Source of the DNA: Lacticaseibacillus paracasei subsp. paracasei
GTDB taxonomy: Bacteria; Bacillota; Bacilli; Lactobacillales; Lactobacillaceae
DNA length: 64,000 nucleotides
Assembly (NCBI RefSeq): GCF_000829035.1
Contig: NZ_AP012541.1
Coordinates: forward strand, 1,178,001-1,242,000
Direction of reading: 5' to 3'
Positions within the stretch are counted from its first letter, which is position 1. Each line of letters opens with the position of its first letter. The notes beneath the pieces are model-generated. The model searched no databases. It saw nothing but the letters and a program-made list of their open reading frames with translations, and had not been told where the DNA came from. Position numbers and translations under genes: made by a program. Shown here in pieces: positions 42,278 to 60,014 of the stretch.

Positions 42278-42925
42278 GTTGATTTAATTTAACTGGCAGT
42301 AAGTATTTTGTCTTAACGCGTGCATACCTGTGGGTGAAACGCTTTGTATTGCAGAGCTCAAAACTTACCATTTATGACTTCATCATTCACGACCTGTATT
42401 GCTACTGTGCAGGTCACTCTTCTTGTATAATGAATGCAAGTTAGTCAACCAGGTAACAAGAAGGGAACGACTCATCATGGCAGCACCATTAACTGGTCCT
42501 TTGCGTAATCTATTGTTAGCTAGTCAGCTCGGCTTAAGCGTGCACCATCCGTTGGCCGGCTGGTTTGTGCTGACGATTCTTTATCATGATGCTCGTAGTA
42601 GCAGTGAGCCAATTACTTTGAGTTACTTGGCTCGAACGTATAACAACGAATATCTGGATGCGGCCACTGATGAAGACCCGATCGCTGACGATGTTTTGAA
42701 AAAAGTGTTGGATGTCCTTGTGGCCCAAGCTGGGTTGGTCGAGGTTAATCCGCGTAAGGTCCGTGCCCGAATGCGCAGCGGTCAGTATCATATTCGCCAA
42801 TCCTACGTGTATCATATTACGAGCAGCGGTAGCGAATATCTGAAAATGATGCAGAAGGTGGGCTCCTATGCTGTAATTACGGACAAAAATAGTTTGTGCG
42901 ATAATTGACAGATGAGGAATATTTT

Positions 42926-43201
42926 ATGACCAATACAGCTATTCGCTACACCCCCGAATTTAAGCAAACCTTGATTGATCTTCATGAAAAAGGACACTCA
43001 TTCAAAGAACTACATGAAGAATACGGTCCTTCCTTAGACACTATTCGCAAATGGGTTCAGGCGGCCACTGTCATTGCCATTGATCATCAAGGTACTGCTG
43101 TGACCAACGAACAGTTCAAGCAACTTCAAAAAGAAAATCGCCGTTTGAGGGAAGAACTCGATATTTTAAAACGAGCGGCGGTGTTGCTGGCAAAGCGTTG
43201 A
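42926..43201 (+). CDS. IS3-family transposase OrfA
   Basis: 91 residues. A helix-turn-helix (KQTLIDLHEKGHSFKELHEEYG, then SLDTIRKWV) is followed by a leucine-zipper-like coil (QLQKENRRLREELDILKRA). It binds the IS ends. ATG 42926 follows GATGAGGAAT. A T TTA AAA slippery heptamer at 43165-43171, about 35 bases before a GC-rich hairpin, should give a -1 shift into OrfB. Confidence 0.88.
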   Translation: MTNTAIRYTPEFKQTLIDLHEKGHSFKELHEEYGPSLDTIRKWVQAATVIAIDHQGTAVTNEQFKQLQKENRRLREELDILKRAAVLLAKR

Positions 43202-43230
43202 TTCATAGCGGCCGAAAGGCCGCTCTTTTT
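43165..43230 (+). promoter_or_regulatory. Predicted -1 frameshift signal of the IS3 element
   Basis: The slippery site T TTA AAA (43165-43171) is in the OrfA frame; the hairpin AGCGGCC-GAAA-GGCCGCT (43207-43224) and a T tract follow. Confidence 0.6.
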
Positions 43231-44061
43231 ATGATTCAAGATCAATTGAGCCGGGGGCACCGCATCACAGTTATTCTCCGAGCGTTACGGATCCCTTCGA
43301 GTACCTACTATGACTGGTTAAGGTGGCATCCTAAGTCACGAAATCGCCGCCGAATTAAGCTTAAAGAGCTGGTTCAGGTTCTTTGGCAACGTCGAAAGTT
43401 TTACGGATACGTGCGGATTGCTAAACGTATTCGTAAATTACTTAAATGCCGCTTAAGTGACCGCACGATTTGGAAAGTCATGCGTGAATTGGGGATTCAA
43501 TCGACAATGTATCGTAAACGCTCTAAAAAGCCTACCACAACCACTGACATGCCCCAAAAACCTAATTTAATGCGACACCTAGCTGACTTGTCTGAGGTCG
43601 TGACCACCGATATCACCTATATTCAACTGATCAACCAAAACTGGGTTTACCTTGCAACAGCGTATGATCCAAAAGCGAGAAAAGTCTTAGCTTGGCAAGT
43701 GGGTCAACAGATGACACAAGACCTCGCGGTCGCACCGATTCAAGCGTTAATTCACCAAGGTTATACTTTTAAGATGGTTCATAGCGATATGGGTAGTCAA
43801 TATACCAGTCGTTTGTTTGAGACAACATTGACAGATGCGCACCTGCGTCACTCATATTCGCGCAAAGGCAAACCGGCTGATAACGGGCGGATTGAGGCCT
43901 ACCATTCGCTATTGAAACGAGAATGGGTCCGGTTGGAGCAGATCAACTATGAATCAATTTTAGACGTCACTGAATCCATTGCTCGTTACAACACCTTCTA
44001 CAATCATGATCGCGAGACCAACGGTCGCGGTGCTTGCAAAAGAAAGTCAGCAGCTGCATAA
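43198..44061 (+). CDS. IS3-family transposase OrfB (DDE integrase core)
   Basis: About 287 residues. DDE residues lie in TTDITYIQ, MVHSDMGSQYTS and NGRIEAYHSLLKRE. A helix-turn-helix-like N-terminal HTH_21 region precedes the core. It is normally made as an OrfAB fusion through the -1 frameshift; ATG 43231 could start OrfB alone. The frame is intact, so this copy may be active. Confidence 0.9.
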   Translation: MIHSGRKAALFMIQDQLSRGHRITVILRALRIPSSTYYDWLRWHPKSRNRRRIKLKELVQVLWQRRKFYGYVRIAKRIRKLLKCRLSDRTIWKVMRELGIQSTMYRKRSKKPTTTTDMPQKPNLMRHLADLSEVVTTDITYIQLINQNWVYLATAYDPKARKVLAWQVGQQMTQDLAVAPIQALIHQGYTFKMVHSDMGSQYTSRLFETTLTDAHLRHSYSRKGKPADNGRIEAYHSLLKREWVRLEQINYESILDVTESIARYNTFYNHDRETNGRGACKRKSAAA

Positions 44062-45371
44062 GTAACCGTTCAATAGGCGCACAGCCCTGGGGAAAGCACC
44101 AGATGTCAGGGCTTGTTTGTCGTACCTATGGCACGTTAAACAAGATTAAACGCTGATAAAAGATCTGATAATGCGTGAATTTAAGTGACAACCATACGCA
44201 TTCGGCAGAACCGTACAATTTTTGTCCGGACCATTGACATTCTTGCCGTGATTGATGCAGAAAGTACTATCTCTGCTAACACGAACCGGATTCAGGAGTA
44301 CGTTGCTTTAGTTGAAAAGCTTAGCGTGCCAGTTCGTTCGGGCGCCGATACGCAACTCTATAATGATTTTAAAAATATGCTTGATGCCTACGATGATGTG
44401 ATGAAGGGCATTCACAAACTTGAAGACGACCTTGACGAGCTGGCAAATGATATTGCCTTTAACCACGGCAGTCAGGAAGCAGGACATTTGCAAAAGATGC
44501 TGCGCGACAAGGCAATTCCTGCTTATCAGCTGATGTTGCAACAGGCAGCGCGGATTCAAGGATTGGCGAATGATCCGACTTTTCCCGACCAGATTGCTCA
44601 TTCTCAGCAAGGTAGCGATGATCTCGATGCGGCGCACGCTGTTGGTCAGCAGGATGTTTTAGTTGCCCGATTACAACGAACGAAAAAATGGGCGGCCGCG
44701 CAGTTAACCCGACTTGCCTTGAGTATGAGCCCGACTTCCTCGGCCATTGATAGCAGTTTGGATTCAATCTATCTTGTGTTTAATACGTTGCTAGGCATCG
44801 TGCATTTATTGAGTCAGGAACTGGAACATGCAAAGCGCCAAGCAATTGATATCAAGGCGTTGTCGCGCCAACTAGATACCTTGTTATCTCATTACCAGCA
44901 GCTGGAGATTCCCGCCCGCGTGCCGCGTCATTTGCCAGTTGATCGCGAGGTTGAAGATGCCAGCGACTTGCTAGATGCCTCGACCATGGGACCTGTCCGT
45001 TATTTAGCCAATGCCGCGGTTAAAAAGCCGGCGAGCGAAGCGGACAATCCGACAGTGACGGATGACGCGCCGAGTGAACAGGCACAATTAGCAGGGTTGC
45101 GTGAGTTCCGGCAACAGTTGATGATTGATGACAATCACGGACGAGTTGATCATGATCTGACCCTGAAAACAGTTAGCGCCCGTGATGAGATCGTCAAATT
45201 GTTTGCCGTGACCTACCACGATGACTTGACTGGATTTGCCCCGTTTGGTCGGGATGCTCAGACAGTGCAATCAATAACGAACACACCACCATTGCAGTTG
45301 CGGGTCGCCGGTGAAGATTACGCGTGATGTTGCCGTGCGATTTCAGTTTTTCGTTTGCCTAGGGGGATTTT

Positions 45372-46105
45372 ATGGCTAACATGACGAATCTTGATCGATT
45401 GATCATCAATGAATTGCTCGATCACGGGGTATTCACAACGACGCCGTTGGCAGCCGCGACCCAACAAAGCCGTGCTGCCATCGCTGAGCTTAAAAAGCCG
45501 TCTGTGCAGCAACGGATCGGCAATTATTTTAAAAATCTGCTCGGTCTTGCACCGGACAATTTTCAGGAGAACTTATTGTTGTTGGCGGGCACCGCTAAGC
45601 TGAATTCAGCGCAGGTGCACGTACTTTTGGCAACGGTAAAAACGGTGATCAATGAGCCTGAATTGCAAGGCAAAGATGAGGATCGCGCAGTTGCAACGCA
45701 AAAAATTGTGCGGCAGGTGCACAGTGAAGTGACGGAGCTGGACGAACGCGAAATCTTGCGGTTAATCGACAGCTTGTTTGTGAAGCGGTTTGGCTTGTTC
45801 ACGCCGGATCGGTTAGAGGAAGACCAGGAGAACACCCCAGCGGAAATTGACGATTATTGGGAGGTCAGTCCGGACTTTAACGAGTTTGCCCAAAACTTAG
45901 TGAATCATTTGGGCCAATCCGCGCCCGCAAACGACTTGAATGAGCTGCAACAGGTGAGTCGAGTGCTGCTGGCCGAGCAGTTTATGAGTCCGAAAACCAA
46001 CCCGCAAACTTGGCCATTGCTCGTTGCTCATAAAGAGGAGATCGCTGACCAATGGCGCCAAGGCGGCCGGTTTATCTTAGAAGTCGGTGACCACCCTAGA
46101 TTGCA
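45372..46105 (+). pseudogene. jetB: Wadjet jetB (MukE-like), 3' end altered by IS30
   Basis: About 245 codons from ATG 45372 (AGGGGGAT upstream). The protein begins MANMTNLDRLIINELLDHGVF and has winged-helix-like helical content, ending in WRQGGRFILEVGDHPRL where the IS30 element starts. In Wadjet this subunit (DUF4194/MukE type) links JetA and JetC. Most of it seems present; the original end, and the separation from jetC, are gone. The as-read ORF stops at 46109, just inside the IS. Confidence 0.65.
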
Positions 46106-47134
46106 ATAATAAAGTTACCACCTAGAAAGAGGCTTGCTCACTGCTTGAACTGGGGTTTGCCAACGGAGACATTTTCTAGGTTTGTTATTGATAAGCGCTG
46201 TGGCTTGTTGAATATCGGTCTCTGAAACCTGATCAAACTGTGTTCCCTTCGGGAAATAGTAGCGAAGTTCTCGATTGAACCGTTCATTTGTGCCCCGTTC
46301 ATTCGGGTGATAGGCGTGGCAAAAGTAAACCGGTATCCGATAGCGCTTTGTAAGCGCCTGATCGCAGGAAAACTCTTTACCGTGATCAACCGTCACTGAT
46401 CGAACCGGACCCGGAAAGTCCACCATCAGTCTTGCAAATCCCTTGAGAACAGCATTTTGTGATAAGTTTTCAAGCTTAGTTGTCGCCATTAAACGTGTCA
46501 CCCGATCGACAATGGTCAAAACAGCAGCCTTTGACCCGCGACCACCGCGAACTGTATCCATCTCTAAATGTCCTTTTTCGGTTCGCCGATTAGCTGACTC
46601 ACTGCGAATCTCAATTGAGGTGCCTACTGCTTGGTTATAGCGCGACCGAAGGTCTTGTCTTCTTTTATGACGTTTACCGTGATCAAAGAGTTGGCTTGGC
46701 TGAAAATCGACTTGTCTTTGATAAATCCAGTGGTAAATCGTGTGTGGCGCACAGTGAACGGCATAACCGACCATTTCAGGGGACCAACCTAGGTTTAGCT
46801 TCTCAGTTACCATCCGCTTCAACTTAGGCGTTAAAATCGAGTGCCGACCACAACGATGCCGACAAGTATCGGCATGATCCTGAGCTATAATGGCGCAGTA
46901 ATCACCTTCAGGGCAACGGTGAAGCTCATGCCTAATAGAAATACGAGAGCGGCCTAAGGTCGCGGCGATGTATTGAATCGTGTGGTGTTGCATCAGTTCT
47001 ATCTGAGATCGTTCAATTAAGGTTATAATGGCCATGGGACCTGTCCTTCTCTCTAGATGGTATGTTATGCAAACACCATTTTAGCAAGAACGGACAGGTC
47101 TTTTTTCACATTTTCTGGGTGGTAACTTTAATTA
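46106..47134 (-). mobile_element. IS30-family insertion sequence, about 1.03 kb
   Basis: The ends, read outward, are GGTGGTAACTTTATTAT and GGTGGTAACTTTAATTA. Both are followed by TGCAATCTAGG, so the element either sits in an 18-bp palindrome (CCTAGATTGCAATCTAGG) with TGCA duplicated, or its inverted repeats extend 11 bases further each way (46095-47145). It carries one transposase gene. It separates jetB from the jetC remnant. Confidence 0.8.
46115..47035 (-). CDS. IS30-family transposase
   Basis: 306 residues. The N-terminal helix-turn-helix is LIERSQIELMQHHTIQYIAATLGRSRISIRHELHR. The DDE core has GHLEMDTVRGG, SVTVDHGKEF and HPNERGTNERFNRELR. The C-terminal LINNKPRKCLRWQTPVQ is typical of IS30. 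The frame is intact. Confidence 0.95.
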   Translation of the reverse strand: MAIITLIERSQIELMQHHTIQYIAATLGRSRISIRHELHRCPEGDYCAIIAQDHADTCRHRCGRHSILTPKLKRMVTEKLNLGWSPEMVGYAVHCAPHTIYHWIYQRQVDFQPSQLFDHGKRHKRRQDLRSRYNQAVGTSIEIRSESANRRTEKGHLEMDTVRGGRGSKAAVLTIVDRVTRLMATTKLENLSQNAVLKGFARLMVDFPGPVRSVTVDHGKEFSCDQALTKRYRIPVYFCHAYHPNERGTNERFNRELRYYFPKGTQFDQVSETDIQQATALINNKPRKCLRWQTPVQAVSKPLSRW

Positions 47135-47138
47135 TGCA

Positions 47139-49421
47139 ATCTAGGCATATTCAAGAAATCCAACTTGATCCTTACAGTCAACGATTTGCCCGTAATGCAA
47201 CGAATCAGGAAAAGTTGACCCATACTAAGCAAGAGGTTGTTGCATATACAGCGCAACTGGCCGACCTTAAAAAGGCTGCAGACGAGATTGCGGCAAGTTT
47301 AGAAGTATTGCGCGAGGCCAAAGCTGAACAGGACCAACTGGTGAAGCGCCGTGAACAGTATGATCAGCAGATTAAGAATAGTCAGGCTCAACTCGATCAA
47401 TATCGCGGCACTGAGATCAAAATAACGACTTTGGAGAAACAACTGACTGACTTAACAGCAGCCCAGGCGAAGTTGGCGCACCAACGAGATGCCCATGTAC
47501 AGAACAATCTGACGCCGCTTAAAGTACGGCTTTTAGCGCGGACGAGCGTGCTCAATGACTTTTCCAGCGTTATGGCTGATGACGATTGGTCGGTGATTGA
47601 AGACCAATTGAGTCATTACATGCATCAGTTAACTGCCGCGAAGGTTCAGTATGATGGTATTGAGGAAACGATCAATCGCCTGAGCGCCGATGTCGGCATT
47701 ACTAAACAGATGCAGACTAAAATGGGCACTGCGATTGATGACCGCGTCCAAGGTTTCGGCAGTAATCGGGTTCGTGAAGGATTGCAAAAGGATAACACCA
47801 GCATTCACGAGGCTGGTGCGGCGCAAATGAATACGCAATACCAACCGTTACGTGATCAACAGGCCGCCATTTTGGCCAAACATCCTGATCTGAAAGTTAT
47901 GTTGCAAGATGCGACAATTTTGCCGCAGTTGAAAGCAATCCGGAAGCAATCCGGAAGCAACTCAAACCATTAGTGGCGACCTTGAGAAACTTGCTGACGG
48001 AAATTGCTGGCAACGAACGAACCCAAGCATCGCTGCGAGACAGAATCGCGGAACTAAAAGGCACAATTGATCCTGATTTCGATGCAGTTAAACTTGCTAA
48101 TACCATTGCCAAACTAAAGGCAGATCGCGCCGCTCTGAAAATTGACCCTGAGTTACCACAGCGTTTGGCAGCGGCAATCGCCAAGCAAAAGAAATTCACG
48201 CAGCAGCTTCAGGCCGTTGAATCGGAAATTAATCGGCGGCAAGGGATCATCCAAACACTAACCGTCACAATCGAAACCGACTCAGCACAGTTGCACCTGC
48301 TCGCCACTGACATTGTGTCGAAGTTGAAAACTTTAAGTCCGTATCTTCCTGACGATGTGCATTTAGCGAAAGTTGACGAGCTATTGGCATTTGCCCACAG
48401 CAATCGCAGCCGGATCCGCAGCAGCAACTTTTCGGACATTACCAATCAAATTAGCCGCCTCATTCATAGATCGGATGGGCACGGTGAAGATTTGAATGCC
48501 TTGGATGTTTTGTTTGCTGACCGCGGTTTCCCGGCTGAAGCCAGCGCCATGCGGCAACAACGTTCTGTTTCAGAAAACGGCTTGACGATTGTTGCTTTTG
48601 ATATCAATGAAGCGCTGAAATTGCTATATGATGATCACGCCGCTGTCGAAAAGGCGCTTGCTGAAGAAAAAAGCGGCAATGACATGGCCTACACGACCTT
48701 TGTTCAGGCAGACGTGGCAGCGATTAGTGCGCAGTATCAAGTTATCGAGACCTACAATCAAATTTTGGCAGAAGGCGCCGGTCACCAGCACATTAAGCTG
48801 AAAGTTGAACTGACGCCGATCAACGGCATTGCCCCAGAAGCAATTCAAGAAGCCTGCGACGCCCAACTGCAACAACGCCCCCATCTCGAAGCCTTAGTGA
48901 AACAGCGCCTTGATCAATTGGCGAACAACACGGAAATTTCCAATGACGACGAAGCCTTTTTTACGACGGCGGAGGAACTACTTGATACCCGCGAGTGGTC
49001 TGACTTCAAGGTCTTGATTCGCCGCCGCCAAAGTGCTGACGATGATTTTGAAGTGGTTGATGACAAATTCGTTCAATCCGGTGGGTCCGGCGCTGAAAAG
49101 GCGCAGGCCATGGTCTTGCCATTGCTCATAGTGCCAAAAATGGTCCTACAACGCTCCAATCGCGCTGATGCCCCGCATTTGGTGATGTTTGACGAGTTTG
49201 CGGACAAACTGGATCCAGAAACTGCGAAGTCGTTTGCGAAAACGATTGTCAATTTTGGCTTCAGTTTTATCGCCACCATGCCAAGCGGCGCGCAAAACAA
49301 ACTCTTGGCAGATGGGGTTGATAACATCGTTTGGGATGTGATGGGTTCCCCGCAACAAGGTGACGGGAAATTCCACCTTAATCGCGTCCAACAAAACTTT
49401 ATTTGGAAAAAGGACGACTAA
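47139..49421 (+). pseudogene. jetC: Wadjet jetC (SMC-like ATPase), 5' truncated and frameshifted
   Basis: The remnant begins at the IS30 end with coiled coil (SRHIQEIQLDPYSQRFARNA...) and lacks any Walker A motif. At 47935-47956 GCAATCCGGAA is tandemly duplicated (11 bp), shifting the frame: the first part stops at 47973 and the second runs 47973-49421. Removing one unit gives KAIRKQLKPLVATLRNLLTEIAG, a continuous coil. The second part ends with the SMC signature VQSGGSGAEKAQ and Walker B LVMFDEFADKLDPE. JetC would be the DNA-extruding motor; here it cannot work. Confidence 0.85.
47935..47956 (+). repeat. 11-bp tandem duplication in jetC
   Basis: Two exact copies of GCAATCCGGAA, followed by a partial third GCAA. 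The 11-bp addition shifts the reading frame; contraction to one copy would restore it. Confidence 0.9.
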
Positions 49422-49445
49422 TCAGAGAATCGTGGGGTAGTAGAA

Positions 49446-50261
49446 GTGAGCTCATATATTGACGCCTTTGAAAAGGTCACCGGGCAGCCGGCACCGCCGG
49501 AAGCTGGCAAACTCGATCAACTTTTCAATCAAATCAGACAAGGGAAAACGTTGCCGCCACGCGGGCAGCAAGCCGTTGCGATGGGATTAACTGCGCACAC
49601 GCTTAATGACGCACGGGAAGACCCAGCACTTTTTGCCTATTATCGCTGGGTCATGACCCACTGCTTTAAATCGGGTCAGGTCAACGAACTGACTGCCCGA
49701 CTCATCGGTATGGCCTTTACCTCGGCTAATATTTTTGACACCGACTTGCCCCAACCGCTGACCCTCAATCCCTGGCAGCTCACACCTATGCTCGACTTTC
49801 CACTGAAAAACAAACAAGCCGTTGTCATCGAAAACAACGGCGTCTTTGCTTTACTACACCAAGAACATCCCGACTGGCCGTTAATCTTACAGTCTGGCAA
49901 CGACTTTAACGAGGTTTATGTCCAACTCATCCAACGACCTGAGGCGCGGGGGATGCGCTACGTCTACCTCGGTGATCTCGACAGCGCCGGCATTCAAATG
50001 GCCGATCAGTTTGCAAGGCTGTTGAAGCAAACATCAGCCGAAGAAGTGGCGGCGTTGCAACAACCAACCGATGTTCGACTTTGGTTAGCTGATCTTGGCA
50101 AAATAGACGTTCGCCGCACCAAGCAACGCAAGGTCGTCTCGCCGGTCTATCAAGCAGAGATGACGACGATTGCACTTTTTGGGAAGTTTATTGAGCAGGA
50201 ACAGTTGATGGGGGTTTATGAGGAACGGATTGCTGAGTGGCTTGAAGCGACAGAAGTTTGA
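49446..50261 (+). CDS. jetD: TOPRIM nuclease subunit of Wadjet (JetD-like)
   Basis: 271 residues. The TOPRIM signature is visible: a Glu in AVVIENNGVFALL (about 122) and the DxD in VYLGDLDSAGIQMADQF (about 182-188). In Wadjet, JetD cuts plasmid DNA once the SMC complex has finished extruding it. It is shorter than typical JetD (about 400 residues) and resembles the DUF2399-type end. GTG 49446 has a weak GGGGTAG upstream, 24 bases after jetC. It is the only undamaged member of the locus. Confidence 0.72.
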   Translation: MSSYIDAFEKVTGQPAPPEAGKLDQLFNQIRQGKTLPPRGQQAVAMGLTAHTLNDAREDPALFAYYRWVMTHCFKSGQVNELTARLIGMAFTSANIFDTDLPQPLTLNPWQLTPMLDFPLKNKQAVVIENNGVFALLHQEHPDWPLILQSGNDFNEVYVQLIQRPEARGMRYVYLGDLDSAGIQMADQFARLLKQTSAEEVAALQQPTDVRLWLADLGKIDVRRTKQRKVVSPVYQAEMTTIALFGKFIEQEQLMGVYEERIAEWLEATEV

Positions 50262-50959: not shown

Positions 50960-51260
50960 GCAAGATCCATCTTTATGAATTGATAAATGATTCAACAAAC
51001 CTTGTTTACTGCAAAAATTAAGTTCATGTTTTTTCGTTAAAAGTTTGATCAATAAAATGACCAATCCGTAGTGATCGATCTTTGAGGACCGGTTGAATTT
51101 TACTTATTTAGCGGCTGTTGACCTAGCCAGGTACAAAATATCTTGCAGAACCGGTTTCACAATAGTGGTTGTTGAATAATTCATAACGTATGATGGCAGT
51201 TACGCTTCCTTTTGTGCGAAGAAAAAGCCAGAAATTCGGTTGAATTCATCTCACATGATG

Positions 51261-51301
51261 TTATCCCACTGTGTTTACATTGGGATAATTCGTGATATAA
51301 T
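51261..51301 (+). promoter_or_regulatory. Promoter and operator of the toxin-antitoxin operon
   Basis: TTATCCCA (51261-51268) and TGGGATAA (51281-51288) form a dyad that covers the -35 box TTTACA (51274-51279). The -10 TATAAT (51296-51301) follows 16 bases later. Typical of antitoxin autoregulation. The remainder of the gap 50960-51260 shows nothing recognisable. Confidence 0.75.
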
Positions 51302-51332
51302 TAAGTTGTTAGATAGGAAGGAGTGGTTAGCA

Positions 51333-51602
51333 ATGGCAGCCACAAAGAAAGAAACTCGCTTGAATATTCGTATTGATCCTGAATTAAAAAGTGCTGCTCA
51401 AATCGTAGCAAATGATATGGGCATCGACTTGACCGCAGCTGTTACGATGTTCATGACGAAAATGGTGAAGGATCACGCCCTCCCGTTTACCCCAACAAGT
51501 CTACCAGTTGAAACCTTACAGGCGCTGAAAGAAGCAAAGCACCCAGAGCTGCTCAAAAAATACAGCACACCTGATGACATGTGGAGAGACTTGAATGTAT
51601 AG
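51333..51602 (+). CDS. RelB/DinJ-family antitoxin
   Basis: 89 residues. The N-terminal ribbon-helix-helix (ETRLNIRIDPELKSAAQIVANDMGIDLTAAVTMFMTKMV) binds DNA and the C-terminal helices bind the toxin. AGGAAGGAG precedes ATG 51333. It overlaps the toxin gene by 8 bases, the usual arrangement, and likely represses the operon through the dyad upstream. Confidence 0.94.
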   Translation: MAATKKETRLNIRIDPELKSAAQIVANDMGIDLTAAVTMFMTKMVKDHALPFTPTSLPVETLQALKEAKHPELLKKYSTPDDMWRDLNV

Positions 51603-51897
51603 TCTGGTTCCGACGCCTACATTTAAGCGCGATCTAAAACGACTCTCCAAGAAGCATTGGCCGATGGACGAACTAAAGACGGCTGTTAATCTCCTAGCTG
51701 CTGGTACAAATGCTGAACTATTAAGCAAAAAGTATGCAGATCATGCCTTGTCTTCAAGCAGCGAGTGGAAAGGATATCGTGAACTACATGTTGACGGCCC
51801 TCGTGGCGGCTGGTTGCTAATCTATAAAATTAAGCAGCAAGATCTTATTTTAACCCTAGTTAGAACCGGATCTCATCATAACCTTCTGGGTAAATAG
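51595..51897 (+). CDS. YafQ/RelE-family toxin
   Basis: 100 residues, a RelE-fold ribosome-dependent mRNA interferase. The start PTPTFKRDLKRLSKK, the HALSSSSEWKGYRELHVDGPRGGWLLIYKI core and the closing LVRTGSHHNLLG, with its His, are typical of YafQ. It cleaves translated mRNA unless bound by the antitoxin. Terminator follows at once. Confidence 0.94.
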   Translation: MYSLVPTPTFKRDLKRLSKKHWPMDELKTAVNLLAAGTNAELLSKKYADHALSSSSEWKGYRELHVDGPRGGWLLIYKIKQQDLILTLVRTGSHHNLLGK

Positions 51898-56429: not shown

Positions 56430-58292
56430 TTATGAAAAGTCACGCATGGCCAAATCTCTAACTGAATAATTTGAGCTACTCATTAATTGAGCTTTGATTG
56501 AACTCAAAGCCTTCTGAGCAACAGTGGAAGATTCATGAATTTGAACAACAAGATTTCTTTTTACCACGTTATTTGTGTCAGAGACCAGTCTTTGGAGTTG
56601 GCCAAGAGCAATTTCGGAGTATTGTGAATCACTGGATAGGCACACTAATGACTGAAAAATGTTCATCAGTAACTCATTTTCGCTCTCCCTTGAGTTATGG
56701 GTAATCAGAAATTGCAAAATTGGGGGTAATGTGCTGCTGAGTTTTGATCTGTAAAGGGCCAAAGGAATAAAATCGACCAACAGCTCAGAAACAAAGCGAA
56801 GGTATCGCGGGCTGGTGTCAAGGGTAAGTGTCAAGTGTAATTTTCCTGTGTCGAGGCCTGAAACTGCTATATCGGTAAATGAGCGGATGGCATCAATTAA
56901 AGAAGTGGGCGTGCTGATCTCAAAGAAACCTGAAGGCTCGGCGGTAATTTTACTGGTTTGAATTTTTTTAATTATCATCTCAAAGTCTTCATGACTACCA
57001 TTCGACTGTGAGAGCAAAGTCATAAGCAGCTCAGTCGCAGACTGTTTTGTACTAATAATCTGGTGAGGATTGTTAAGTGTGTCGACAATTTGTTCGAAGA
57101 CCTGTCCAGTAATTTGGGAGTTCAATCCCGCGTGTTTTTTTATTGATATATTTAATGTGGCAAAGGGGTCATTTGCGAACCCGACAATTACTTTACCATG
57201 TTGCTTTTCGTTTTGTGATTTCATTTCGGAAAGTTGTTCTTTCAAAAAATCATTACAGCCGATCTCCTTCTGGTTGTTCCAAATGAAAGGAAATATGTCT
57301 CTGTTGAAAAATGTCCCATAGTTTTTTATGAGGCATCTTTTTAGCTCCGTTGATTCGGTTGGCCAAGCAGACAAAACAGATAGGATTGCGAGTCGGATTT
57401 TGCCCATGAAGCGTGTTTGATCCGAGTTTTTCACAATAGCGAAGAGAACGGCGATGACACGATGGCGTTGATCAATTTGAACAGCTGTATAATCTATCGC
57501 GCCAACTATGATGTCCGCTAACTCCTCATAGTAGCGCTTTGATGAAGGAGTTAGAACCTCCAAAATAGCAATAATATCATTTTGTGGAATTCTAAAGCTG
57601 TTTCGGAAGAGACCCAGAATATCAATGGTAGGTTGCACAATGAGGACTGGTGTGGTTGCCCATGCTTTTATTTTTGCGTAAAGAACTGTCCATGTATCAT
57701 CAAAGCTTTTGTCTGACAGATAGTCACCGACGAGGCGAAGCGTACTTGCTTCTACACCTAATTTTTCGGTGTCTACAGGGTATGACTGGGATGATTGGAG
57801 AAGGGAAAGCGCGTCCTCTTCAGAAAACTGTCCCACTAAGTAGTTGTAGTGCTTGATCCATAGGGCCATTCTCTCATGGGAATCTCCCATAAGCAGCTGA
57901 TTTTGTAACACGTCTCGTAGATACTCTACATTTTGGTATTTCTTCAATAACATTTCAGAAATAATATTAAGATTCTTTGGCAGTTGCCGGATCTGTGCAA
58001 TTGATCCGTTGCATGCAGCTAATACAAATGCGTCAGTGAGTGAATCGGGATATAATGCAATCCCCGGACCATATGAACTTTCCTGCGTAGAAGAAGCAGT
58101 CAAAGTCTTGTTCTCTTCTTTCCTTACCCAAGAATAGACACGCTCAAGTGAGTGGTCAATTCCAGGGTAATAGAAAGGTTGAGGGAATTCGTCAAGTTGT
58201 TTTTGATATGGATTTTCACTGTGCCATTGATTTTTTGCTTCGCCTTCGATATTTAGTAAGTTGCGGAGGTCGATAAGGGTGTCTTGAAACAT
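56430..58292 (-). CDS. Large helical (solenoid-like) protein of unknown function, 620 residues
   Basis: No signal peptide, no transmembrane segment and no nucleotide-binding motif is visible. The N-terminal 90 residues include LERVYSWVRKEENKTLTASS; from about 95 on, amphipathic helices of about 20-35 residues repeat, as in HEAT-like or armadillo-like scaffolds. It starts 24 bases after the DUF4062-like gene and has no ribosome site of its own, so it is translationally coupled to it. It may be the effector or regulator of a two-component defence unit; that is inference. Base composition looks more AT-rich than in neighbours. Confidence 0.7.
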   Translation of the reverse strand: MFQDTLIDLRNLLNIEGEAKNQWHSENPYQKQLDEFPQPFYYPGIDHSLERVYSWVRKEENKTLTASSTQESSYGPGIALYPDSLTDAFVLAACNGSIAQIRQLPKNLNIISEMLLKKYQNVEYLRDVLQNQLLMGDSHERMALWIKHYNYLVGQFSEEDALSLLQSSQSYPVDTEKLGVEASTLRLVGDYLSDKSFDDTWTVLYAKIKAWATTPVLIVQPTIDILGLFRNSFRIPQNDIIAILEVLTPSSKRYYEELADIIVGAIDYTAVQIDQRHRVIAVLFAIVKNSDQTRFMGKIRLAILSVLSAWPTESTELKRCLIKNYGTFFNRDIFPFIWNNQKEIGCNDFLKEQLSEMKSQNEKQHGKVIVGFANDPFATLNISIKKHAGLNSQITGQVFEQIVDTLNNPHQIISTKQSATELLMTLLSQSNGSHEDFEMIIKKIQTSKITAEPSGFFEISTPTSLIDAIRSFTDIAVSGLDTGKLHLTLTLDTSPRYLRFVSELLVDFIPLALYRSKLSSTLPPILQFLITHNSRESENELLMNIFQSLVCLSSDSQYSEIALGQLQRLVSDTNNVVKRNLVVQIHESSTVAQKALSSIKAQLMSSSNYSVRDLAMRDFS

Positions 58293-58315
58293 CCATGTGG
58301 GAACTTCATTGATCT

Positions 58316-59209
58316 CTACAGTCTTTGCAATTCCTTGAGCGTCTTTAAAGCTTCCTCTGGTTTGGATGAGAAGAATAAGTAAACTGCTTTTAATCTGGCA
58401 GTAAGCACCTTCTTCAAGGCCTCAGTCAAAATTACTTTAGAGTTTGCAGACTGGATTCCAGAAAGCATTAATTTGTCCCAATCAAAAGGTAATCGCTTGT
58501 TAAAGAAAATTCGTAAGATTAGATTGCTAACACTTTCATCAATAGCGGAGGCTGGAGCATCTCGTTTCTTTTCACGACTATCGTGAAAAACTAGAGTTCG
58601 AATCATTTCTTTAGAAAGGCCTATCTGGTTGAACATTGCTTTTTCAAAAAGAGATGAAGAGTCCAGAGCAAGCGGTTCGTCAAAAGTAGTTGTAGTGGAT
58701 TGATCATTGTCAAGGACGGGAGAGTTCTTGTCGAAAAAGGCCTTATAAATGGTAACCATTTGATTGAAGAGGATGTTCTCAATCTCGTCTAGGTAATCAT
58801 CGCTTTTTGGGAGCTCCTGCACCCAACTGCTCTCGCCCTGAGCCAGTGGCTGTTGTTTCATTTCTGATCCTTTGTCATTCTTGGCTGGTAGAATACAAAA
58901 GAGTCTTGGAATTTGGCGATTTCTAGCTGCCGTAATCTCTATCTGCACACCAGTGGGTATCGGGTACTCAGAATCTAAGAGTACAATCACAAGGTTGGAG
59001 TCCGCAAGTTGAGTTAGATATTCAGTCTTTAAGTCCAAAATTGAGGAACTATCATGTTCTAGAATAAACGGCTCGATGAACGAGTATTTAGCTAATCGTT
59101 CGTTTAGAGAAGTTCTCAATTCAAGAATTCTTCGCCTCTCTGGGTTGCCGGGATTTTTCATTGCAGAGCTAATAAATATACGAAGAGGACGCAATTTTTC
59201 TCTTTTCAT
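58316..59209 (-). CDS. DUF4062-like protein, 297 residues
   Basis: The N-terminal 110 residues match DUF4062 by pattern: LRIFISSAMKNPGNPERRRILELRTSLNERL, an FILEHDSSS stretch, then LADSNLVIVLLDSEYPIPTGVQIEITAARNR and IPRLFCIL. This is a Rossmann-like, TIR/nucleoside-deoxyribosyltransferase-like fold that often heads STAND or NLR-like immune proteins. Here it is not fused to a P-loop domain; the C-terminal half (about 150-297) is helical and unrecognised. AAAGGAT lies 6 bases before the ATG. Coupled to the downstream 620-residue protein. Confidence 0.7.
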   Translation of the reverse strand: MKREKLRPLRIFISSAMKNPGNPERRRILELRTSLNERLAKYSFIEPFILEHDSSSILDLKTEYLTQLADSNLVIVLLDSEYPIPTGVQIEITAARNRQIPRLFCILPAKNDKGSEMKQQPLAQGESSWVQELPKSDDYLDEIENILFNQMVTIYKAFFDKNSPVLDNDQSTTTTFDEPLALDSSSLFEKAMFNQIGLSKEMIRTLVFHDSREKKRDAPASAIDESVSNLILRIFFNKRLPFDWDKLMLSGIQSANSKVILTEALKKVLTARLKAVYLFFSSKPEEALKTLKELQRL

Positions 59210-59323
59210 TTTTCTATCCTTTAGCTAGTTCTGTTATCCAGGTGTCTTCGAGTTATGGATTATCGACATTTGAACTTCTCTCTGCATCTCATCCAAATAG
59301 AGGTTGATGTATCGTCGGTGGAG

Positions 59324-59754
59324 CTATTGAGCAATGGCCAATGTATCATTTGTCTGCCAAGCATACATTTGAATAATATCATCCAGATAAGCGCGTTCTT
59401 TCTGATCATCACCGTCATCATGAACGAGTTCCGCCTTTGCAAAGATGTTCTGTACAAGTGTAATCCGGTCAACCAGACCATTGAGTGAATATTCTTGATG
59501 CTCGAGTCTATTAGAATGCCATTTTTGCATCTCGGGTTGTCAATCCTTAACTCATTGGGAGTCACGTTAAGTGCGTTGCAAAATTGCATAATCGTTTCTA
59601 CGGATAGTGTAAACACTCCGCGTTCTATCTTAGAGATGGTCTGTTCGATCGTACCGATCTCAGCAGCAAGGTCTTTTTGAGTTATTCTCTGAGCTTTTCT
59701 CAACTGTTTGATATGCAAGCCAATTTTGCTCTCAACTATTTTTTCTTTGTTCAT
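59324..59754 (-). pseudogene. XRE-family regulator, frameshifted at a homopolymer
   Basis: From ATG 59754 (AGGG upstream) the first 75 codons encode a clear helix-turn-helix (IKQLRKAQRITQKDLAAEIGTIEQTISKIERG). At the T5 run 59522-59526 (A5 on this strand) the frame breaks: the in-frame reading becomes a Met/Trp-rich stretch to 59260, whereas the -1 frame reads KWHSNRLEHQEYSLNGLVDR then KERAYLDDIIQMYAWQTNDTLA to a stop at 59324. One extra A would restore a 143-residue protein. It precedes the DUF4062-like gene on the same strand and may control it. Confidence 0.7.
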
Positions 59755-60014
59755 ATTGGCCCTCATTTCAATTGGTCTTAAACTTGTAACAACCTCAGCA
59801 ACTCTTTGCGTAAAGCCACTAGTCTGGTTGAAACCCATTGAAACATTTTTAGTGTTTGTCGTCCAGCATAATAGGCCTGATTCTGTTTCTGGCTAGCTAT
59901 AGTGAGAACAAGCATTTTAGTATTCATCAAAGAACACTAAAATACCGATTCGTCTGGGGATATCTCATTCGCCGCCAACGCCCCCGATACTTAATAGGGG
60001 ATAATAATGAAAGA

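Follow-up and report, generated by a model that had tools for sequence, protein, structure and literature searches.

The stretch of DNA analysed here, which we call the window, covers 64 kb of the chromosome of Lacticaseibacillus paracasei JCM 8130 (G000:C1:1178001-1242000) and carries the remains of a Wadjet-like jetABCD operon. The chromosome contig measures 2,995,875 bp in a genome of three contigs, and the part of the genome report available to us (PMC3792948) gives a complete genome with a chromosome of 2,995,875 bp and two plasmids. An initial annotation had described the locus as broken at three points, by an insertion sequence (IS) of the IS3 family in jetA, one of the IS30 family at the jetB/jetC border and an 11-bp duplication in jetC. 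All three lesions are present, close to where it had put them; a fourth, which it had missed, shifts the frame of jetA close to its 3' end. The features are listed below, with P0115 and P0002 as the intact JetA and JetC used for comparison.

42477..42857, plus strand: jetA 5' piece (residues 1-128), the winged-helix end of a kleisin-like subunit; 127 of 128 residues identical to the intact 498-amino-acid P0115
42858..42860 (left copy) and 44248-44250 (right copy), unstranded: GTG target duplication of 3 bp, from flank comparison
42861..44247, plus strand: IS3-family element; its two frames lie at about 42932-43201 and 43198-44061; ends set by comparing copies
44248..45327, plus strand: jetA 3' piece (residues 128-486); 356 of 359 residues identical to P0115
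45372..46094, plus strand: jetB, truncated after 241 codons; DNA alignments to the loci L039-L041 end at 46093
46095..47145, minus strand: IS30-family element of 1051 bp with no target duplication; from the NCBIfam cut-off and copy comparison
47146..47972, plus strand: jetC middle piece, starting at P0002 residue 286; identical to P0002 286-553 at all 268 residues
47936..47957, plus strand: 11-bp tandem duplication, which puts jetC out of frame (period-11 match 47933-47960), from a repeat scan
47973..49421, plus strand: jetC C-terminal piece, carrying the ATP-binding cassette (ABC) signature SGGSGAEK and the Walker B motif VMFDEF; identical to P0002 at 480 of 482 residues
49446..50261, plus strand: jetD, a compact TOPRIM nuclease of 271 amino acids, open over its full length; Pfam DUF2399 37.6 bits (cut-off 23.4) and JetD_C 24.4 bits (cut-off 22)

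Lesions of the jet locus

The jetA gene is split after residue 128 by an element with the features of the IS3 family: a two-frame transposase (187.9 bits against NCBIfam IS3, cut-off 160), inverted ends and a short target duplication. The JCM 8130 genome holds four full copies, three of them with a 3-bp duplication in flanks read by eye; all four share base 42860, which leaves the left end uncertain by one base. The additional frame shift ends the jetA frame at 45327, so that the last 12 residues of P0115 are lost, and this tail is still readable in another frame.

The lesion between jetB and jetC is more extensive. The element found there has a single transposase, which passes the NCBIfam IS30 cut-off, and inverted ends. 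Its flanks, CCAC on the left and CATA on the right, show no target duplication. Alignments to three orthologous loci break off at 46093 and pick up again at 47146, leaving 1143 bp of the intact operon (L039 6918-8060) without a counterpart in the window. The missing DNA encodes the end of jetB and JetC residues 1-285, including the Walker A ATP site GENAVGKTT. About 98 C-terminal codons of jetB are gone relative to the L. casei protein, and the reading frame continues into the IS up to a stop at 46109; intact JetB has 344 residues and starts five codons further upstream. The element named by the initial annotation is there, but it is not a simple insertion at the jetB/jetC border. The missing stretch was not found elsewhere in the genome by protein search, in which the same query recovered five of five other genomes tested, nor by a DNA search run without a positive control.

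As target duplication and DNA are both missing, the lesion would most likely have arisen when two IS30 copies in direct orientation recombined, or through a deletion next to an IS30 element. An inversion was considered instead and rejected, since the missing DNA was not found elsewhere in the genome and the swapped partner flanks it predicts occur at none of the five other IS30 copies that have no target duplication (L011, L015, L055, L058 and L060; flanks read by eye). Those five copies possibly mark further IS30-bounded rearrangements. Altogether the genome carries 28 full IS30 copies, with a duplication of 4 bp at 17, of 3 bp at five (flanks read by eye) and none at six, the jet copy included.

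What is left of jetC is broken once more. The middle piece has no start codon, Walker A motif or N-terminal head, residues 1-285 being absent from the window, and its frame is lost at the 11-bp duplication, as seen relative to intact P0002. This repeat stands alone in the window: a scan for exact tandem duplications with units of 8-15 bp, leaving aside those built of one or two base types, found no other. It probably arose by slippage between short repeats. The C-terminal piece still matches Pfam SbcC_Walker_B (36.4 bits, cut-off 27) and PADLOC JetC2 (E 4.2e-9); a search with its 482 residues returned 16 proteins, none identical to it. The only open gene of the operon is jetD, which keeps the TOPRIM acidic residues E129, D177 and D179, and the locus should therefore be dead.

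Identity, intact relatives and distribution

Intact relatives show what the operon was. Complete operons occur in L. casei ATCC 393 (G005), L. chiayiensis (G006) and L. zeae (G028), with JetA of 506, JetB of 344, JetC of 1040 and JetD of 270-273 residues, at 70-74% DNA identity to the window where aligned. The order jetA-B-C-D, with the four genes adjacent, was read in loci L039-L049; intact orthologues in the same order were what the initial annotation had named as support for its reading. Homologous ABC-transporter and two-component genes adjoin the operon in all three genomes and in the window, where alone three further genes separate them from jetA.

Intact JetC is an SMC-like ABC ATPase: the key residues of GENAVGKTT, SGGSGAEK and LVMFDEF are invariant in 12 sequences, and its profile matches the solved JetC 9qe0. 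The TOPRIM acidic residues of JetD are likewise invariant in 12 sequences. JetA can be placed as the kleisin of a Wadjet in the broad sense by fold comparison only, its top Foldseek match (E 5.4e-4) being a chain of a MukE-MukF complex, presumably MukF; matches to STAT, syntaxin and MarR/PadR proteins were set aside as partial helical or winged-helix matches. No PADLOC Jet profile matched JetA. JetB is a probable KITE protein (tandem winged helix) judging from its sequence: the L. casei protein matches PADLOC JetB2 at E 9e-6, the window piece only JetB1 at E 0.028, and nothing in the PDB matched. The PDB likewise returned nothing relevant for JetA or JetD profiles, and hhalign found no match between JetA or JetB and single canonical sequences, a weak test because each target is one sequence. 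For JetD, a predicted model built from three input sequences had a mean predicted local distance difference test (pLDDT) score of 46 and was discarded, and a pattern search for its alignment A2 picked out 74 viral stretches, none of them confirmed as a relative.

A Lamassu affiliation was also considered. P0002 and P0003 match LmuB (P0003 at E 5.9e-9), mainly in the coiled coil and with scores below JetC2, and for the window's middle piece alone LmuB is the best match (E 7.4e-5). We take these as coiled-coil matches, and as JetC2 scores higher for the whole proteins we do not assign them to Lamassu. The Wadjet identity proposed by the initial annotation thus holds in the broad sense, for a non-standard system: JetC and JetD match Jet profiles, JetA matches none, JetC reaches at most 79.8 bits and JetD is about 135 residues short.

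The damage is recent. Over the surviving JetA and JetC pieces, identity to intact L. paracasei proteins is 99-100%; these are represented by P0002, named L. paracasei, with 186 member sequences, and by P0115 with 125 (the latter, a nameless record, placed in the species by identity). With such near-identical proteins on record, the loss is therefore recent and limited to some strains. The earlier view of a recently lost and reconstructable system therefore stands as to its age, while the deletion prevents jetB and jetC from being reconstructed from the window alone.

A JetA profile of the compact family (A1) detected it, remnants included, in 55 of 397 Lactobacillaceae genomes and 13 of 40 genera. 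Full-length canonical type II JetC, searched with one JetC2 profile, exceeded 1000 bits in three of the 397, the next score, 58.7 bits, being a compact JetC. The PADLOC JetC2 profiles thus see the compact family only at tens of bits, yet it is found in far more of these genomes. JetA profile A5 was detected in nine of 395 genomes of the order, all Lactobacillaceae, and in one of 398 of the class, the window's own; at neither level did it detect anything outside the family. In the accessible part of a DefenseFinder survey, 9.38% of 1344 lactic acid bacteria have Wadjet (PMC13304284), a figure that may or may not count compact systems. A search of 72,556 plasmid records, run without a positive control, gave no match to JetC P0002.

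The state of the operon was then scored in 54 other loci, a gene counting as whole at JetA >=440, JetB >=290, JetC >=950 and JetD >=240 residues; the window was scored by direct comparison with its orthologues. Four loci cut by contig ends (G080, G188, G220 and G264) were left out, and loci without JetA are missed because JetA was the probe. Among the 51 assessable loci, the window included, 36 are whole, 12 are broken (G000, G019, G077, G125, G128, G203, G249, G310, G319, G344, G345 and G362, from seven genera) and three are undecided, namely G038 and G132, which have no JetD, and the divergent G241, whose JetD lies just under the limit. The housekeeping SMC protein (TIGR02168) is full length in 51 of 51 genomes, so general assembly error is not the cause of the breakage; as SMC is a housekeeping control, faster decay than that of other accessory genes does not follow.

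Three loci deserve separate mention. G038 (L093) and G132 (L100), from one genus, keep JetA, JetB and JetC, and compact JetD was found neither at the locus nor genome-wide. In another Lacticaseibacillus genome (G019:C1, L092 5625-7163), whose JetA resembles P0114, a deletion removed all of jetC and joined JetB, up to about residue 285, in frame to about the last 225 residues of JetD, with the TOPRIM residues kept.

Function and cause of the decay

In an intact operon, JetC as SMC-like ATPase, JetA as kleisin and JetB as probable KITE protein would assemble into a complex that extrudes DNA loops; on sensing a small DNA circle, it would set off cleavage by the TOPRIM nuclease JetD (for the Wadjet subunits see the available text of PMC10586767). 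By analogy with the studied Wadjets, the compact family would act in the same way, plasmid restriction included. In JCM 8130 the complex cannot form, considering that: (i) jetA is split by the IS3-family element and truncated at its end, (ii) the IS30-bounded deletion took out the last part of jetB and, from jetC, the part for the ATP-binding N-terminal head, and (iii) the 11-bp duplication breaks the remaining jetC. JetD may still be made, with its activator gone.

Taken together, the locus is very probably what is left of a compact, type-II-like Wadjet operon that was ruined recently and whose decay is most simply read as neutral and IS-driven. With 28 IS30 copies in the genome, six of them without target duplication, such decay is enough. 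The initial annotation had suggested that the system was lost when plasmids became useful. We found no support for this: the two plasmids of JCM 8130 do not show selection, because L. casei ATCC 393 also has two according to the part of PMC3792948 available to us, and its operon is intact. More generally, adaptive loss would mean that the locus was inactivated for blocking useful plasmids or attacking the cell, and that later hits accumulated. Four lesions in a single operon fit this, as does breakage in 12 of 51 loci from seven genera next to an SMC that is whole throughout; moreover, the accessible text of PMC12287153 reports that a C. cellulovorans mutant which arose spontaneously and takes up plasmids better lacks Wadjet genes, a restriction system and a portion of a CRISPR locus. 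However, SMC is a control for assembly error and says nothing about how a dispensable defence operon decays, JCM 8130 has many mobile ISs, and the intact locus of ATCC 393 coexists with its plasmids, so that we consider adaptive loss unlikely.

It is still less probable that the intact family organises the chromosome in the manner of MukBEF, helped by an accessory TOPRIM protein, and has no role in plasmid defence. The two loci that keep JetABC without JetD would suit an organiser, and so would the JetA match to the MukE-MukF complex. Yet JetD accompanies three other whole genes in 36 of 51 loci with invariant acidic residues in the 12 aligned sequences, the family is patchy (55 of 397 genomes) and often broken, unlike a housekeeping system, and all genomes in the SMC control, G038 and G132 among them, possess an SMC of their own. 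That the lesions are assembly artefacts deserves hardly any credence. We have a single assembly, and IS copies are repeats prone to misjoining; but the contig is chromosome-sized, from a genome reported as complete in what was available of PMC3792948, the IS3 joint in jetA carries its 3-bp target duplication, and a misjoin at IS30 would have left the missing 1.14 kb elsewhere, where it was not found.

The ruin itself is a modest finding, because broken defence loci are common. If the compact family restricts plasmids, it bears on plasmid uptake by lactic acid bacteria and on engineering them.

Two further groups of genes lie in the window. A RelB/YafQ-type toxin-antitoxin pair (51240-51897) sits just downstream of the jet locus. 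At 56430-59838, on the minus strand, a group of three genes encodes a 620-amino-acid protein with no Pfam match and a weak PADLOC LmuB match (E 1e-4), a 297-amino-acid protein with no Pfam match and a helix-turn-helix regulator; it is possibly an undescribed defence or mobile module.

Comparison with known systems

In titles and abstract openings on Wadjet or JetABCD in lactobacilli, a search mostly confined to papers outside subscription, neither the compact family nor its decay is described. The closest known system is Wadjet type II (N. vireti, PDB 9qe0/9qe1; TIGR02680/TIGR02679; PADLOC JetA2-D2), which shares the JetC head and its ABC motifs, the JetD TOPRIM core and the JetA fold over its length. 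By sequence, however, compact JetA is unmatched and JetB barely matched, and the compact proteins do not match JetA2, B2, C2 and D2 over their full length: the JetD match spans about 90 residues, and JetC reaches at most 79.8 bits (PADLOC), compared with 1061 bits for the canonical type II JetC of G011. Compact JetC has about 1040 residues against about 1370, and this shortening of about 330 lies between the two halves of the head (residues 465-868, compared with profile positions 455-1196). Compact JetD has about 270 residues against 408 in G011; only its TOPRIM part aligns, with about 135 fewer residues ahead of it, which bears on the N-terminal CAP domain. The canonical operon of G011, another species of the same genus (L050), has the same pairing of SMC and TOPRIM proteins; it differs in a JetC of 1379 residues and in a JetA and JetB that form one open frame of 807 residues (L050 7150-9573).

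Wadjet type I resembles the compact family in JetC size (profiles of 1097-1144 positions) and supplies the only match of the window's JetB piece, JetB1; the top JetC and JetD matches are nevertheless type II, with type I weaker. MukBEF shares the fold of a MukE-MukF chain with JetA, whereas the compact family has a TOPRIM nuclease gene and a patchy distribution. The two elements belong to the IS3 and IS30 families, with transposases over curated cut-offs and target duplications of 3 bp (three of four) and mostly 4 bp (17 of 28), except that the IS30 copy in the jet locus has none and bounds a deletion.

We see an even chance that the intact relatives represent an undescribed compact Wadjet lineage, confined to Lactobacillaceae as sampled, with each JetC arm about 165-170 residues shorter than in type II and JetD without much of its N-terminal domain, that decays repeatedly; the JetABC of G038 and G132 may be a DNA organiser again. 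Channel-less hinges are linked to long arms in the accessible part of PMC12647877, and a compact hinge without a channel would contradict that link. The compact family is also a natural test of the need for JetC arm length and for the JetD N-terminal domain.

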